Origin: a virus
IMG/VR virus record: IMGVR_UViG_3300046522_000560
Coordinates: 1 to 51,412 of that record
Reading direction: 5' to 3' (one strand)
Length of the DNA: 51,412 bases
The position numbers and the translations under genes are program-made. Under the pieces are notes generated by a model. The model saw nothing but the letters and a program-made list of their open reading frames with translations, ran no database searches and had not been told where the DNA came from. This document shows positions 15,883 through 27,225 of this stretch, piece by piece; the first letter of the stretch is position 1, and every line of letters begins with the position of its first letter.

Positions 15883-15940
15883 CTATAAGTTGAATGCCAT
15901 ATGCTGTATAAAAGCAAAATCTTTTCAGAGATTTAATTCC

Positions 15941-17173
15941 ATGCCTATATTTACTTTAAATAATAATGAACTAAATGCAGTTGAAACCACGTCTTTCAAA
16001 GAAGAAGCTATTCTGGAAAGACTACATCTCCAGCAAGCACTCAAGAAAAATATCGGGGTAATTGCTGAGGACTGTCTCATTATTGCTGAAGAGTATGCTG
16101 AATGGGATGGTTCAAAGAGAAGAATTGATTTACTGGCAATTGATAAAAATGCAAATCTTGTAATTATAGAGCTGAAGCGTACAGACACTGGTGACCATAT
16201 GGAGCTTCAAGCTCTCCGGTATGCATCAATGGTTTCTACAATGACTCTGGATATAGCGATAGATATCTATCGTCGATATAAAATAAATAATGGCTATCCA
16301 TCTTTTGATCACGACAACGCACGTAAAGAAATTTCAAATTTTGTAGATGTTGATAATCTGGATGAAAGTAATTTTGCGGATGACGTGAGAATCATTCTGG
16401 TCTCATCAAACTTTTCAAAAGAACTAACCACCTCAGTGATCTGGCTTAATGAGCGTGATCTGGATATTACTTGTATAAGAATGCAGCCATATACTCACAA
16501 TTCTCAGATTCTGGTTGATATTCAACAAATCATCCCTTTACCGGAAGCAAAAGATTATCAGATTAAGGCACAGAAAAAATCAGAAGAAAGACGAGAAGCC
16601 AAGCTTACGAATGCAAGGGATTACTCAAGCTTCATGTTCAATGGTAAAACTCTGAATAAGCGTTACCTGGCTCTGGAAATTATTAAATGCCGGTTTGATG
16701 AAATCGATAATAAGAATATCGAAGATCTTAGAGCAGAGTTTAATGAATATCCGAATCTGGATAGATTACTGGTTAAACTTAACCAACTGGATGAGCAAAG
16801 ATATGACCGTTATTTTATTGAGAAAGAACATCAGTTACAGATGAGTAATGGAGACATATATGTTATTTCCAATCAATGGGGCAAAGGTAATATTTATCAG
16901 TTGATAGAAATTGCAGCCAACTTTAACTATGAAATTATTAACACTTCAAAGGATCAGTTAAAACGTTCAGTTGAATATGGTGATTATTTGATAGAACAGT
17001 TAGAAGACACCACTATACTGGTTTATAAAAATGGCGAGAAAGTATCGGCTTACGGGGTTTTGCTAGAGCTGGCAACTACCAAGGGTATCAGTCATTTAAA
17101 TAGTAAAGGTGGTAAAAAGAACACAAGGCAACTTGGTAAAGACTTGATTGATCAATTAGGTATTAACTCGTAG
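15941..17173 (+). CDS. PDDEXK-family nuclease-like protein
   Basis: A 410-residue protein, start MPIFTLNNNELNAVE. Residues about 25-90 carry an endonuclease-fold signature: an E-rich helix, KRRIDLLAID (catalytic D) and NLVIIELKR (ExK), as in NucS/DUF91-type and related restriction-like nucleases. A linker rich in K/E (about 205-220) leads to a C-terminal half of unknown fold with VISNQWGKGNIYQLIEIA. It stands alone with its own flanking terminators, as expected for a moron. Possible role: defence nuclease or DNA repair; not shown. Confidence 0.62.
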   Translation: MPIFTLNNNELNAVETTSFKEEAILERLHLQQALKKNIGVIAEDCLIIAEEYAEWDGSKRRIDLLAIDKNANLVIIELKRTDTGDHMELQALRYASMVSTMTLDIAIDIYRRYKINNGYPSFDHDNARKEISNFVDVDNLDESNFADDVRIILVSSNFSKELTTSVIWLNERDLDITCIRMQPYTHNSQILVDIQQIIPLPEAKDYQIKAQKKSEERREAKLTNARDYSSFMFNGKTLNKRYLALEIIKCRFDEIDNKNIEDLRAEFNEYPNLDRLLVKLNQLDEQRYDRYFIEKEHQLQMSNGDIYVISNQWGKGNIYQLIEIAANFNYEIINTSKDQLKRSVEYGDYLIEQLEDTTILVYKNGEKVSAYGVLLELATTKGISHLNSKGGKKNTRQLGKDLIDQLGINS

Positions 17174-23977: not shown

Positions 23978-24027
23978 GTACAAAGCTTTTGTTTGAATAT
24001 TTATAGATTAATTTTTTATTAAGTATA

Positions 24028-24055
24028 TTGATTACTAGGTCTTTTTGGTTATAAT
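24028..24055 (+). promoter_or_regulatory. Promoter for the tRNA-like RNA and HEPN gene
   Basis: TTGATT (24028-24033), 16 bases, TATAAT (24050-24055), a perfect -10. The expected start, six to seven bases further, is about 24062, the first base of the tRNA-like fold. Confidence 0.65.
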
Positions 24056-24061
24056 TAAATT

Positions 24062-24154
24062 GATACTATAGTTTAGTGTAAGAATAAAACGTCTATAAAA
24101 AAGAGGGTGACCTTTATTTTATAGAAGAGCCTGGTTCAAATCCAGGTAGTAATA
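24062..24154 (+). ncRNA. tRNA-like RNA lacking an anticodon loop
   Basis: The order follows a tRNA. Acceptor strand GATACTA (24062-24068) faces TAGTAAT (24147-24153) with five Watson-Crick pairs, one G-U and one mismatch; TA fills positions 8-9. The D arm is GTTT/AAAC (24071-24074, 24087-24090), followed by a single G. An arm begins TCTAT and closes with ATAGA (24092-24096, 24121-24125); then a 4-base variable loop AGAG, and a perfect T arm CCTGG-TTCAAAT-CCAGG (24130-24146). TAGTTTAGTG and GGTTCAAATCC match the tRNA A- and B-box consensus. Instead of a 7-base anticodon loop, the third arm continues (AAAA/TTTT, an A-A mismatch, AGAGG/CCTTT with one G-U) to a GTGA tetraloop. The D loop lacks the usual GG. 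It lies 20 bases upstream of the HEPN gene. Confidence 0.55.
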
Positions 24155-24173
24155 AATTTAAAAGAGTTACTTT

Positions 24174-24929
24174 ATGCCGCGCGTTTCTACAGATAATGAC
24201 CCTCTTTATCAAGGATGGGTTGATAATGTTAAAAGACTAAAAAAAGCAAAATCTAATATAAATAGATTGATTAATATAGAAATTAAGCTTAGTAAAACTT
24301 TACCTTCAGGTGATATTAGGCAAACTGATTTAGAGAAAATTTCTGATTTGACAAAATCTGCTTTTCTTATTTATTCATCTTATACTGAAGCCAACTTATT
24401 AAGATTAATTCATCTACCGAATTCATTTGAGAGTGCTGAAGTTAAAGCTATTATAAAAGCAAAGCAAAACAATATTATTAATGGTTGGTTTAAAGCAATT
24501 CAGCTTGCTTCTAATAAAAATAATGTATCGATAGTTGGTGGTAGTACGATCGCAATGTGCGAACAATCTTTACAGGGAATTATTAACTCATATTTGAGAG
24601 ATCCTTCCTTAATAAGGAACAAACTAGCTCATGGTCAATGGTCAACTGCTTACAATCGAAACTGTTCGTCATTAAATAGTAATCCGATGGTAGAGCCGAA
24701 CAATCTTGACATTGCTAAAATTGACGGTTGGTATTTAATTTTTGATAAATTAGCCGAATTGTTAAAACAATTAATCCAATCACCTAATCAAGGATTTGCT
24801 GTCCAATACAGCCAGCTTATTCAAGAAATAAATACTATTGCAATTGAGGTTCAGTCTTGGAATTTAATTACTAAAAGGGCTAGATTGCTGAAAAGAGGGG
24901 GAATACCCCAACCTGTAAGTCAAAGCTAA
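24174..24929 (+). CDS. HEPN-domain protein, candidate RNase
   Basis: A 251-residue, mostly helical protein. The HEPN ribonuclease motif Rx4H is present as R148-NKLA-H153 within LIRNKLAHGQW, resembling RiboL-PSP/MAE-type HEPN proteins. An earlier helix (FLIYSSYTEANLLRLIHL) matches the first HEPN helices. HEPN RNases act in toxin-antitoxin, abortive infection and anticodon-nuclease systems. It stands alone between head genes, with its own promoter and terminator, and is preceded by the tRNA-like RNA. No protein antitoxin gene adjoins it. The link between RNA and protein is inferred from position. Confidence 0.72.
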   Translation: MPRVSTDNDPLYQGWVDNVKRLKKAKSNINRLINIEIKLSKTLPSGDIRQTDLEKISDLTKSAFLIYSSYTEANLLRLIHLPNSFESAEVKAIIKAKQNNIINGWFKAIQLASNKNNVSIVGGSTIAMCEQSLQGIINSYLRDPSLIRNKLAHGQWSTAYNRNCSSLNSNPMVEPNNLDIAKIDGWYLIFDKLAELLKQLIQSPNQGFAVQYSQLIQEINTIAIEVQSWNLITKRARLLKRGGIPQPVSQS

Positions 24930-24950
24930 AAGCACCTTCGGGTGCTTTTT
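24928..24950 (+). terminator. Rho-independent terminator after the HEPN gene
   Basis: AAAAGCACC TTCG GGTGCTTTTT: a strong UUCG hairpin with T tract overlapping the HEPN stop codon; it ends the RNA/HEPN transcription unit. Confidence 0.85.
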
Positions 24951-25015
24951 CATTTCCAAAATATAAATGGATATAAAGAATTTCTCTAAAAATATAAAGA
25001 AAAAACTGTCTTTAC

Positions 25016-25071
25016 CTAATTTTTTTATACGTTTATGTATATTTTCTCTAATTTTTTATACGTTTATGCAT
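25016..25071. repeat. Tandem operator-like repeats before the module B HTH gene
   Basis: ATTTTTTATACGTTTATG followed by TAT or CAT occurs twice with a 31-base period (TACGTTTATG at 25028 and 25059), about three helical turns. Located 70 bases upstream of the HTH gene, they are candidates for its autoregulatory operators. Confidence 0.55.
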
Positions 25072-25141
25072 AAAATAGGCTATAAATTTATAGTTTTGCC
25101 TATATCTATATAGTCTGTTTATATTTTGGAATCTTGTTTAT

Positions 25142-25411
25142 ATGTCTGAAGAAATCGATAGCACTCATATGACTCCAGAACAGTTACGACAAGCTGGTGA
25201 GTTGCTCTATGGCACTCAATGGCAAACTGATTTTGCAAGAGCTATCGATGTAGACCCTAGACGCGTTCGTCAATGGCTCTCTGGAGATAGACCCATTCCA
25301 AAAGGTTTGTGGAATGAAGTTATAGAGCTGTTAAATTCTAATAGTAAAAATACCGCAGCATATGCTGAAAACTTGCAACAGGTATTTAATTCAATAAAAA
25401 ATCAAGGCTAA
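25142..25411 (+). CDS. Small HTH repressor, module B
   Basis: An 89-residue paralogue of the 12717 protein (MTPEQLRQAGELLYGT, DVDPRRVRQWLSGDRPIP). The HTH covers residues about 10-55. Its gene lies 93 bases before the ORF6N antirepressor gene, whose promoter contains the palindrome TGTACCTTAAATTAGGTACA. It probably represses that promoter, with different specificity from module A because the operator sequences differ. Confidence 0.72.
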   Translation: MSEEIDSTHMTPEQLRQAGELLYGTQWQTDFARAIDVDPRRVRQWLSGDRPIPKGLWNEVIELLNSNSKNTAAYAENLQQVFNSIKNQG

Positions 25412-25423
25412 GTAGTAATAATA

Positions 25424-25453
25424 TTGACTTGTACCTTAAATTAGGTACATTAT
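25424..25453 (+). promoter_or_regulatory. Promoter with operator for antirepressor B
   Basis: TTGACT (25424-25429), then palindrome TGTACCTTAAATTAGGTACA (25430-25449) in the spacer and a -10-like CATTAT at 25448-25453. Same geometry as 12975-13003, different palindrome arms (TGTACCT against TGTGC). Confidence 0.65.
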
Positions 25454-25504
25454 TGCAGTAGGAAGCATGCTCAATAGGGGCGGCTTATATCCGTAGGGTG
25501 ATAT

Positions 25505-26344
25505 ATGAATACTATTGCAAATATAAATGATAAAGAAATTTCCATTATTAACTATAAAGCTATTCCAGTTGTCACTACTGAAATGCTTGCCGATTTTTAT
25601 GGCACAGATATAGATAACATACGTCAGAACTTTTCTCGAAATTCTGAAAGATTTGTAGAAGGTAAACACGTTTATAAGCTAGAAGGTTCTGAACTGAAGG
25701 CTTTTAAGAACAGCGTGACTAACTGTCACGCTGTTAAAAAGAATGCCAGAATCGTAAATTTATGGACAGAGCGTGGCGCAGCACGACATGCCAAGATGTT
25801 AGATACAGACCAAGCTTGGGAAGTGTTTGAGCAACTAGAAGATTGCTATTTTCACCGAAAAGATATTCTGTCCAAAACACATAAATCAGAACGTGAACCC
25901 TTAACCAATGCAGTAAATATGCTCGTGTCCAAAACCAAGCATTTAAACTATAGCGAAGCATATAAATTGGTTCATCAACGGTTCAACGTTAAAAGCATTG
26001 ATGAAATCCCGTATGATGTGATTCCAGTCGCCGTCGAATACGTGCATCACTTGATTGCCTTATATAGTCAAGCAGACAAGAAACAGCAATATGAATCTAA
26101 ACATGTTGATTCTATAGCTCGCCACATGCTCTGGCTTAATCACTGGTGGTCTGAGTTTGGCGATTCTATCCGAAAACTTGGTCCATCCATGGGACATGGA
26201 ATTCATGATCACTTTAAGTTCGGTGCTGAAGATGCTAGGCAGTTAGTAGGTCGAGAGGTCTATATGCCTATATTTGAATTAGCTAAAGGTCATGACTGGC
26301 ATAAAGGTGGAATTGGGTTTAAATGTTTAAATAAATTTGATTAA
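25505..26344 (+). CDS. Antirepressor, ORF6N plus P22AR-type C-terminus, module B
   Basis: A 279-residue protein. Residues 12-105 form an ORF6N domain (IPVVTTEMLADFYGTDIDNIRQNFSRN in parts, then GKHVYKLEG and LWTERGAARHAKML). The C-terminal half shares PLxxAVxxLVSK, QRFxV and EIPYDVxPxxVEYxHHL with antirepressor A. It would inactivate a repressor by direct binding. Its location among head genes means late transcription could also express it. Confidence 0.8.
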   Translation: MNTIANINDKEISIINYKAIPVVTTEMLADFYGTDIDNIRQNFSRNSERFVEGKHVYKLEGSELKAFKNSVTNCHAVKKNARIVNLWTERGAARHAKMLDTDQAWEVFEQLEDCYFHRKDILSKTHKSEREPLTNAVNMLVSKTKHLNYSEAYKLVHQRFNVKSIDEIPYDVIPVAVEYVHHLIALYSQADKKQQYESKHVDSIARHMLWLNHWWSEFGDSIRKLGPSMGHGIHDHFKFGAEDARQLVGREVYMPIFELAKGHDWHKGGIGFKCLNKFD

Positions 26345-26393
26345 AAAGTAAACTATTGAGCATTTATTTAGAAGCAGAATTGTAAACAAAAAA

Positions 26394-26422
26394 AAGTGCC
26401 AACTGGTTAAAAGTCGGCACTT
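26394..26422. terminator. Hairpin after antirepressor B
   Basis: AAGTGCC pairs with GGCACTT (26416-26422). A run of As at its left gives a U tract on the minus strand, so it may act mainly against leftward transcription. Confidence 0.45.
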
Positions 26423-26560
26423 ATTAATTTGTATTTAAGCACAGTCATTGTTAATTATCAGTTGTAATATAGTATTTTTATTGTAAGTGAGAATTTCCTT
26501 TAGCTATTGATTTAAAATAATATTTTTCTAAAATTCTCCAAAACAACAGGAGCTAAAGCT

Positions 26561-27157
26561 ATGAAATTTTGGGAATATTTTGAAAAAATTATTGCAATTA
26601 TTACTCCGCAATATACGCGAAAAATATATTTGGAAAGATCTGAAAGACTAAGAGAGTTTTTTAAAATTAGAGAAGAAATTGAGACTTCTAATCAACCTGA
26701 ACACGTCAAAACTATTCAGTTAAATGCAGCTGTGTCTGGTTTGACTGGAGCAAAATTTTCTAATATTGAGGAATTTGATTTCTTTCTCGAAAATTTTGAT
26801 CCTAATCGTTTCGAAGAAGATTATTTTGTATTCGCCAGAAACCGTGTTACCTATGAGACTGTCAGAGACGAGCATGGAGCTATAATTAGTATTAAATCTA
26901 TTACTAGGCAACGTTGGTCTATGACTTCATTAAACTGCTTTTTAGTTATAGTTTTTATTTTTGCTGCAGCAGGATTTATAGTAAATTTTCATAACTTTTC
27001 AAAAGCGTTAAATAAGGATTTGGGGATACCTGAACTAGTAAATGCGTCATTCTTTTTAGGTGTACTATTTATTTGTTTTCTTACAATTTTTAAAGTCATA
27101 TATGAATGGGATTTATGGTCAGGTTTTAATCGTTATATTAAGAATAAGTTTCGATGA
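26561..27157 (+). CDS. Two-TM membrane protein, module B
   Basis: A 198-residue protein with a charged N-terminal region of about 120 residues and two hydrophobic segments (LNCFLVIVFIFAAAGFIVNF; ASFFLGVLFICFLTIFKVIY) before a short basic tail. Good ribosome binding site (AGGAG). Same size, layout and neighbourhood as the 14021 protein. Family not recognised; the repeated link with antirepressors suggests a shared role, possibly exclusion. Confidence 0.65.
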   Translation: MKFWEYFEKIIAIITPQYTRKIYLERSERLREFFKIREEIETSNQPEHVKTIQLNAAVSGLTGAKFSNIEEFDFFLENFDPNRFEEDYFVFARNRVTYETVRDEHGAIISIKSITRQRWSMTSLNCFLVIVFIFAAAGFIVNFHNFSKALNKDLGIPELVNASFFLGVLFICFLTIFKVIYEWDLWSGFNRYIKNKFR

Positions 27158-27186
27158 AAAGCTGAACTAAATTTTAACTCTATCTA

Positions 27187-27212
27187 ACCTCGCTATTATG
27201 CGGGGTTTTTTT
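27187..27212 (+). terminator. Rho-independent terminator
   Basis: ACCTCGC TATTAT GCGGGGT followed by seven Ts; closes the accessory insertion before head genes resume. Confidence 0.75.
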
Positions 27213-27225
27213 ATGGGCGCAATTT

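Follow-up and report, generated by a model that had tools for sequence, protein, structure and literature searches.

Several HEPN nucleases cut tRNA, often in the anticodon loop. A tRNA-like leader is known from the E. coli thrS gene, where a translational operator of the threonyl-tRNA synthetase gene mimics anticodon arms. A HEPN gene with an upstream RNA is known in AbiF, a HEPN RNase whose leader RNA acts as an antitoxin; this RNA, RCd22 in C. difficile, represses toxicity (PMC12373285). Here we describe a HEPN-motif gene that directly follows an anticodon-less tRNA-like RNA in the window, by which we mean the whole 51,412-nt stretch of viral DNA that was analyzed. The pairing of a HEPN nuclease with a leader RNA is already known from AbiF; as far as we found, no earlier work describes the tRNA mimic, the protein family or the two-state leader. 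An earlier note on this DNA knew of no system with such an architecture, and we likewise found no description of a tRNA-like RNA paired with a HEPN gene in the searchable literature, in which coverage is thin for subscription papers and preprints; a description among the 224 RNA motifs of 2017 is possible.

Table 1. Coordinates of the predicted RNA, gene and signals in the window
Feature	Position	Strand	Remarks
Probable promoter	24028..24055	+	-35 TTGATT, 16-nt spacer, -10 TATAAT; predicted start at or near 24062
Anticodon-less tRNA-like RNA, whole fold	24062..24154	+	Rfam RF00005, 32.9 bits; model R2
Acceptor stem, 5' strand	24062..24068	+	GATACTA; partner 24147-24153
D arm	24071..24090	+	GTTT / 12-nt loop AGTGTAAGAATA, without GG / AAAC; 4-bp stem
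Hairpin in place of the anticodon arm	24092..24125	+	15-base arms 24092-24106/24111-24125; GTGA (GNRA) tetraloop
T arm	24130..24146	+	CCTGG-TTCAAAT-CCAGG; exact B box GGTTCAAATCC; perfect stem
Acceptor stem, 3' strand	24147..24153	+	TAGTAAT; doubles as 5' arm of the competing trailer hairpin
Trailer arm	24166..24171	+	GTTACT; partner AGTAAT 24148-24153; weak, short counterpart of the homologues' 15-22-pair hairpin
HEPN-motif protein, 251 aa, phrog_12663	24174..24929	+	Coding 24174-24926 plus stop
Putative catalytic HEPN motif R-N-K-L-A-H	24615..24632	+	Residues 148-153; R, N and H invariant in 48 aligned proteins
Hairpin and T run, likely terminator of the unit	24929..24950	+	AAAGCACC-TTCG-GGTGCTTT; overlaps the HEPN stop codon

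The tRNA model of Rfam (RF00005) matched the fold with an E-value of 8.9e-5 in a search of 1.1 kb (gathering score 29), a match that a fast Rfam scan of the whole window had overlooked. A model built from homologues only (R2; 33 leaders, with the window left out) returned 24062-24184 at E 6.7e-7 as its sole match in 51 kb, which is independent proof of the window RNA. None of 200 dinucleotide-shuffled sequences was as stable as the fold (z -4.5). When the 5' part was folded alone, a different hairpin was slightly favored (-27.0 versus -24.4 kcal/mol with the tRNA fold imposed). The acceptor stem consists of five Watson-Crick pairs, one G-U pair and one mismatch, the variable region has 4 nt, and the arms of the hairpin at the anticodon position were registered as inverted repeat I4. 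The window RNA contains a GTGA tetraloop instead of a 7-nt anticodon loop able to decode, and CCA is not present at its 3' end. ARAGORN called zero tRNAs in the window, as expected because the anticodon loop is absent. The earlier note had drawn a tRNA plan at this place, with a perfect T arm, a 4-base variable loop and a long GTGA-capped stem for the anticodon arm, and each of these parts was confirmed; the search with a tRNA covariance model that it proposed gave a match above the gathering score, and R2 found the same place. Its reading of both the A box and the B box as exact held for the B box, while the A box turned out to be an inexact match.

The earlier note had also suggested looking among homologues for loci that keep the HEPN gene but not the fold, and for compensating changes in the arms. 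Relatives were gathered from plasmids, from viral contigs and from a genome set with one member per species. We observed the tRNA-like RNA directly upstream of the gene in 46 of the 49 distinct loci that had an intact gene and enough upstream DNA, a count for which leaders were read and parsed, some loci are near-copies (32 are non-redundant among the 43 parsed) and truncated genes (L050, E. coli phage remnant) were excluded. These loci cover about ten phyla, including Pseudomonadota, Bacteroidota, Actinomycetota, Chloroflexota, Cyanobacteriota, Melainabacteria, Planctomycetota, Thermodesulfobacteriota and Aminicenantes, together with the archaeon Methanolobus. Relatives reached similar Rfam tRNA scores (40.1 bits for L004, 34.7 for L008 and 30.6 for L002). 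The RNA was missing from a well-supported actinobacterial pair that makes up a single clade (Micromonospora L033 and Acidimicrobiaceae L036) and from the very divergent KSB1 locus L044; since the gene is kept in these three, the RNA is not a strict requirement at every locus.

The protein tree separates a type-A clade (support 100/99) from the type-B rest, and the RNA types, assigned from the D arm independently of the protein, followed this tree with 2 label changes versus ∼16 when shuffled. In a scan of 274 genomes with an RNA model (R1), of which only one carried the protein, ordinary tRNAs scored 27-39 bits, compared with 74-102 bits for type B and 41-54 bits for many type-A RNAs; since ordinary tRNAs score this high, weak members are indistinguishable from them genome-wide. 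When viral contigs were scanned with DNA patterns of the type-B and type-A D arms, the known locus L060 was the only true match, the others being without a T arm. In phage records, none of three queries matched an intact gene. E. coli lambdoid phages and a plasmid carried only a 5'-truncated remnant of the HEPN gene, without the RNA; the remnant sites in Escherichia virus Lambda_4C10 (L117 2480-2960) and an E. coli plasmid (L119 2001-2396) lie beside the sit operon.

The stems covary across homologues. Stem partners were anchored on the A and B boxes for the pairing test. Acceptor positions 3-6/67-70 were paired in 92% of cases versus 49% with partners shuffled among loci, a figure that leans slightly to pairing because the acceptor 5' strand was set by hand in ten loci whose A box missed the pattern. 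The T stem was paired in 99% versus 69%, and positions 1-2/71-72 in 20% versus 23%, that is, not beyond chance. The acceptor has 4-5 bp with conserved A71-A72 and differs from the normal 7-bp CCA-type tRNA end. In a sequence-only alignment of 20 type-B RNAs, 10 of the 17 pairs of the tRNA fold had changed on both sides, with a covariation of 0.413 versus 0.119 or less when slid. The arm at the anticodon position was the most variable part of the RNA. Its loops had 3-6 nt in 42 of the 43 parsed RNAs (12 GNRA and one UUCG), the lone exception being L017 with 9 nt; because generic tetraloop caps recur on arms of differing length, we regard this arm as a structural stub. Sequence comparison shows that an acceptor of 4-5 bp and the elbow of a tRNA, with its D and T arms, are retained, that an anticodon loop is absent and that the RNA is tied to the protein family. 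With the fold kept in 46 of 49 loci, covarying stems and the R2 match, the structural reading of the earlier note, a tRNA mimic that has no anticodon and is tied to a HEPN-motif gene, held up against the refuting conditions the note had set.

A second, competing hairpin had not been part of the earlier reading. In 28 of the 32 non-redundant loci we observed a trailer stem of 11-22 pairs (15-22 in 27 of them) that joins the T-stem 3' strand, the acceptor 3' strand and a short tail to the sequence just before the start codon. Because the same strands are used, the tRNA fold and the trailer are mutually exclusive. In type B, 14 of 18 trailer pairs had changed on both sides, with a covariation of 0.521 versus 0.158 or less when slid; this slide test is better than the foreign-partner control, which is inflated by near-copies and a shared AAAG/CTTT core. 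By sequence comparison, the leader of most loci is bistable: it can adopt the trailer, which takes the tRNA fold apart and extends as far as the ribosome-binding region or close to it. In full leaders the predicted trailer was more stable by a median of 14 kcal/mol. Sixteen loci have a hairpin of at least 5 bp and then a T run of 3-6; with the leader cut after the T run, the tRNA fold was the minimum-energy structure in 10 of these 16, and with read-through in 0 of 16. Whether transcription terminates at these T runs is uncertain, as the runs are short and occur in only half of the loci. The trailer was weak or absent in the window and its sister L013. The window RNA is the most divergent copy, with this weak trailer and the only D loop without GG among the 43 parsed RNAs.

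Next to the fold, the earlier note had placed a TATAAT promoter with a start at the first base. Its hexamers are present, the -10 ending 6 nt ahead of the fold, and its position is conserved; its score is unremarkable in this AT-rich region, with 12 found versus 15.9 expected. Among the 32 non-redundant loci, TATAAT-like hexamers peaked 5-7 nt ahead of where the fold begins, with 15 matches at these three offsets versus ∼0.7 per offset farther upstream. This peak makes it probable that the RNA begins with the fold or close to its first base, and the window promoter is supported by its conserved position in homologues rather than by its score. The single terminator claimed to close the unit corresponds to a TTCG-capped hairpin, a likely terminator, at the stop codon. 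The tRNA-like RNA and the HEPN gene are probably co-transcribed, from a promoter predicted to start at the first base of the RNA.

The gene after the fold encodes the RNKLAH motif, as the earlier note had read it. All 48 aligned relatives matched phrog_12663, a family of unknown function, and N18, E72, W105, R148, N149, H153, G154 and Q155 were invariant among them. The window protein matched no Pfam, NCBIfam or PADLOC family. Its AlphaFold2 model was confident (pLDDT 90) and all-helical, as were the models of the family, which contain the conserved HEPN R-x4-6-H motif. The HEPN_RiboL-PSP profile gave weak matches in 3 members, below the cut-off (best 1e-4), the Cas13a profile matched a few family members weakly (2e-4), and the AbiV crystal structure was a weak structural match (E 0.6); structural searches with the protein models gave no significant PDB or viral match. 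The motif, the weak profile matches and the weak AbiV fold match are suggestive of HEPN membership, not conclusive. We infer that the protein is an RNase that recognizes the tRNA elbow and cuts tRNA-type substrates. A Bacteroidetes locus (L047 3350-4528) encodes a 392-aa HEPN variant with an internal insertion and a C-terminal extension; its leader is still compact and tRNA-like, with a 3-nt loop at the anticodon position.

The window, a virus record, contains the head module of an Acinetobacter-type siphophage, in the order terminase, DUF1073 portal, MuF-like protein, the RNA and HEPN gene, DUF2213 and capsid genes. The slot between MuF and DUF2213 holds different cargo in related phages, namely another HEPN-domain protein in vB_AbaSI_5 and two small ORFs in MD-2021a; in this Acinetobacter-type phage, the slot is a variable one and the module is its cargo. 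The HEPN-domain protein of vB_AbaSI_5 (L011 4793-6166, compared with window 23978-27225) is different and larger. Homologues had as defense neighbors IetS, an OLD/AriA-like ATPase, PDC-S28 and AbiV, and also a TniQ gene; the Rhodococcus locus has an AbiGi gene and a restriction enzyme. We claim no enrichment from this neighbor sample, which is small and partly selected by gene size. In Pseudomonas cyclaminis (L025 4789-5673), an AbiV HEPN gene immediately adjoins the HEPN gene. Elsewhere in the window, a perfect 14-bp inverted repeat (TTCCAAAATATAAA; 24954-24967/25118-25131) flanks the intergenic stretch that follows the HEPN gene. A pair of 21-bp direct repeats, 95% alike and 31 bp apart (25021-25072), lies ahead of a YdaS/HTH-like ORF at 25142 and is a possible operator region. 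An ORF with a NucS C-terminal nuclease domain (15890-17173; Pfam E 1e-5) lies upstream of the terminase region.

What is conserved in the RNA is the tRNA elbow, and what is lost are the parts needed for decoding and charging. The explanation we favor is that a HEPN RNase would be held in check by an anticodon-less tRNA decoy, in a type-III-like toxin-antitoxin or abortive-infection module, and in our judgment it has an even chance of being right. An RNA antitoxin acting as a substrate mimic is favored because the elbow is kept, the RNA precedes the nuclease, no protein partner is evident and AbiF provides a precedent. The decoy or antidote role proposed by the earlier note stands as the best candidate explanation. 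In such a module, one promoter would give two products, split by the bistable leader, with the short RNA as the mimic and the long RNA as the messenger. An RNA ending inside the trailer, by termination or cleavage, would fold as the tRNA mimic; read-through mRNA would refold to the trailer hairpin, which would remove the mimic from the message and modulate translation. An elbow-reading protein would bind the mimic, and an anticodon-loop nuclease would find nothing to cut. Infection might upset the ratio of mimic to protein, through shut-off of host transcription or RNA decay, so that the RNase would be freed and phage growth stopped. The architecture of the module has good support; its RNase activity, inhibition and anti-phage function we infer. 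More tentatively, and with odds we would put below even, this would be a new class of RNA-controlled ribonuclease, in which a HEPN nuclease that targets tRNA has its own dedicated inhibitor in a tRNA mimic encoded in cis and lacking an anticodon, a conserved two-state leader yields this inhibitor from shortened transcripts only and unfolds it in the read-through messenger, and the balance of RNA and protein serves as an infection sensor.

The main rival to an RNA antitoxin is purely cis-acting control like that of thrS, in which the leader would be a translational operator, the HEPN protein or a host tRNA-binding factor would shift the balance between tRNA fold and trailer, and no free antitoxin RNA would exist. 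Two mutually exclusive folds that each covary, a trailer arm that abuts or overlaps the ribosome-binding region in many loci, and a single RNA copy per gene without ToxI-style tandem repeats all fit such an operator. However, a pure operator has no need for transcription to begin right at the fold, several type-A loci have their Shine-Dalgarno-like sequence outside the hairpin, and the absence of any other antitoxin for a toxin-like gene is left unexplained. We consider this reading rather unlikely.

The RNA could instead be an obligatory cofactor or activator, used by a HEPN ribonucleoprotein for assembly or target binding. Near-strict co-inheritance with the protein and presence in 46 of 49 loci speak for this, but the three loci that keep the gene without the RNA, the actinobacterial pair among them, argue against it, as does the behavior of HEPN RNases, which generally act as dimers without RNA cofactors. 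We regard a cofactor role as unlikely. Still less probable is a sensor of tRNA handling, in which cutting or protection of the fold by RNase P, RNase Z or phage or host nucleases would switch HEPN translation in infection. The faithful elbow mimicry and a leader that refolds once its 3' part is removed suit a sensor, which gains weight because the leader is bistable; yet the transcript apparently begins at the first base of the fold, leaving no 5' leader for RNase P, and the acceptor end is not of the normal 7-bp CCA type, with positions 1-2/71-72 unpaired.

A Cas13-style guide or recognition arm at the anticodon position, pairing with a target RNA, would account for the variability of this arm, and the proposed ancestors of Cas13 are HEPN genes that have leader RNAs (PMC12165695). 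The guide role raised by the earlier note is nonetheless very improbable, since in 42 of 43 RNAs the arm is a closed hairpin whose loop has 3-6 nt and is often GNRA or UUCG, with nothing long unpaired. Phages frequently carry tRNAs and the window copy is divergent, but a real or decayed tRNA gene, an integration site or chance is scarcely credible and was rejected, given the absent anticodon loop, the silence of ARAGORN, the covariation, the same place before the same gene in about ten phyla and the agreement of the two RNA types with the protein tree.

Bacterial immunity is increasingly found to target tRNAs, and nucleases that cut them need tight control. If the RNA antitoxin reading is true, cells and mobile elements of about ten phyla and an archaeon would restrain tRNA nucleases with a copy of the substrate that cannot be cut. 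phrog_12663 would gain a function, a structured RNA class without its own Rfam family would be added, and a tRNA-shaped RNA that is natural, compact and switchable would become available. The module also enlarges the group of HEPN genes with leader RNAs, the proposed source of Cas13.

Among known systems, the module shares the HEPN R-x4-6-H motif with HepT/MntA (type VII), AbiV, RiboL-PSP, RloC and PrrC. Unlike HepT/MntA, its loci show no MNT or other protein partner gene, and AbiV, RiboL-PSP and other HEPN families have only weak profile or fold resemblance to phrog_12663; to our knowledge, none of these systems has a tRNA-like leader. tRNA mimicry without decoding is also seen in mascRNA/menRNA and viral tRNA-like structures, which serve RNA 3'-end processing or replication and have no HEPN link. 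As in the type III toxin-antitoxin systems ToxIN, CptIN and TenpIN, an RNA element lies upstream of a putative endoribonuclease gene, and its position and the predicted promoter would fit co-transcription with that gene; unlike in these systems, the protein is HEPN-like rather than of the ToxN fold, and the RNA is a single tRNA-like fold rather than tandem pseudoknot repeats, with a single copy and no tandem antitoxin-RNA repeats in every leader examined. Like the E. coli thrS operator, its leader has the look of a tRNA, here the putative ligand of the encoded protein, and sits next to the ribosome-binding site, whereas here the anticodon arm is lost, the elbow is kept and the encoded protein is not a synthetase. 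Membership in the AbiF family was rejected, as the window protein has no Pfam match, Abi_2 (PF07751) included, the profile-profile alignment with Abi_2 covers 22 columns around RNxxAH and is not significant (E 0.056), and the abiF RNA motif (RF03085) was absent from the Rfam matches up to E 10, the window RNA being a tRNA mimic and not the abiF stem-loop motif. Like AbiF/Abi_2, the module combines a HEPN-motif protein with a structured ncRNA directly upstream in one transcript, as predicted here, and a prophage and defense location. We therefore place it beside the known kind of HEPN gene with a leader RNA, of which AbiF is the existing example.
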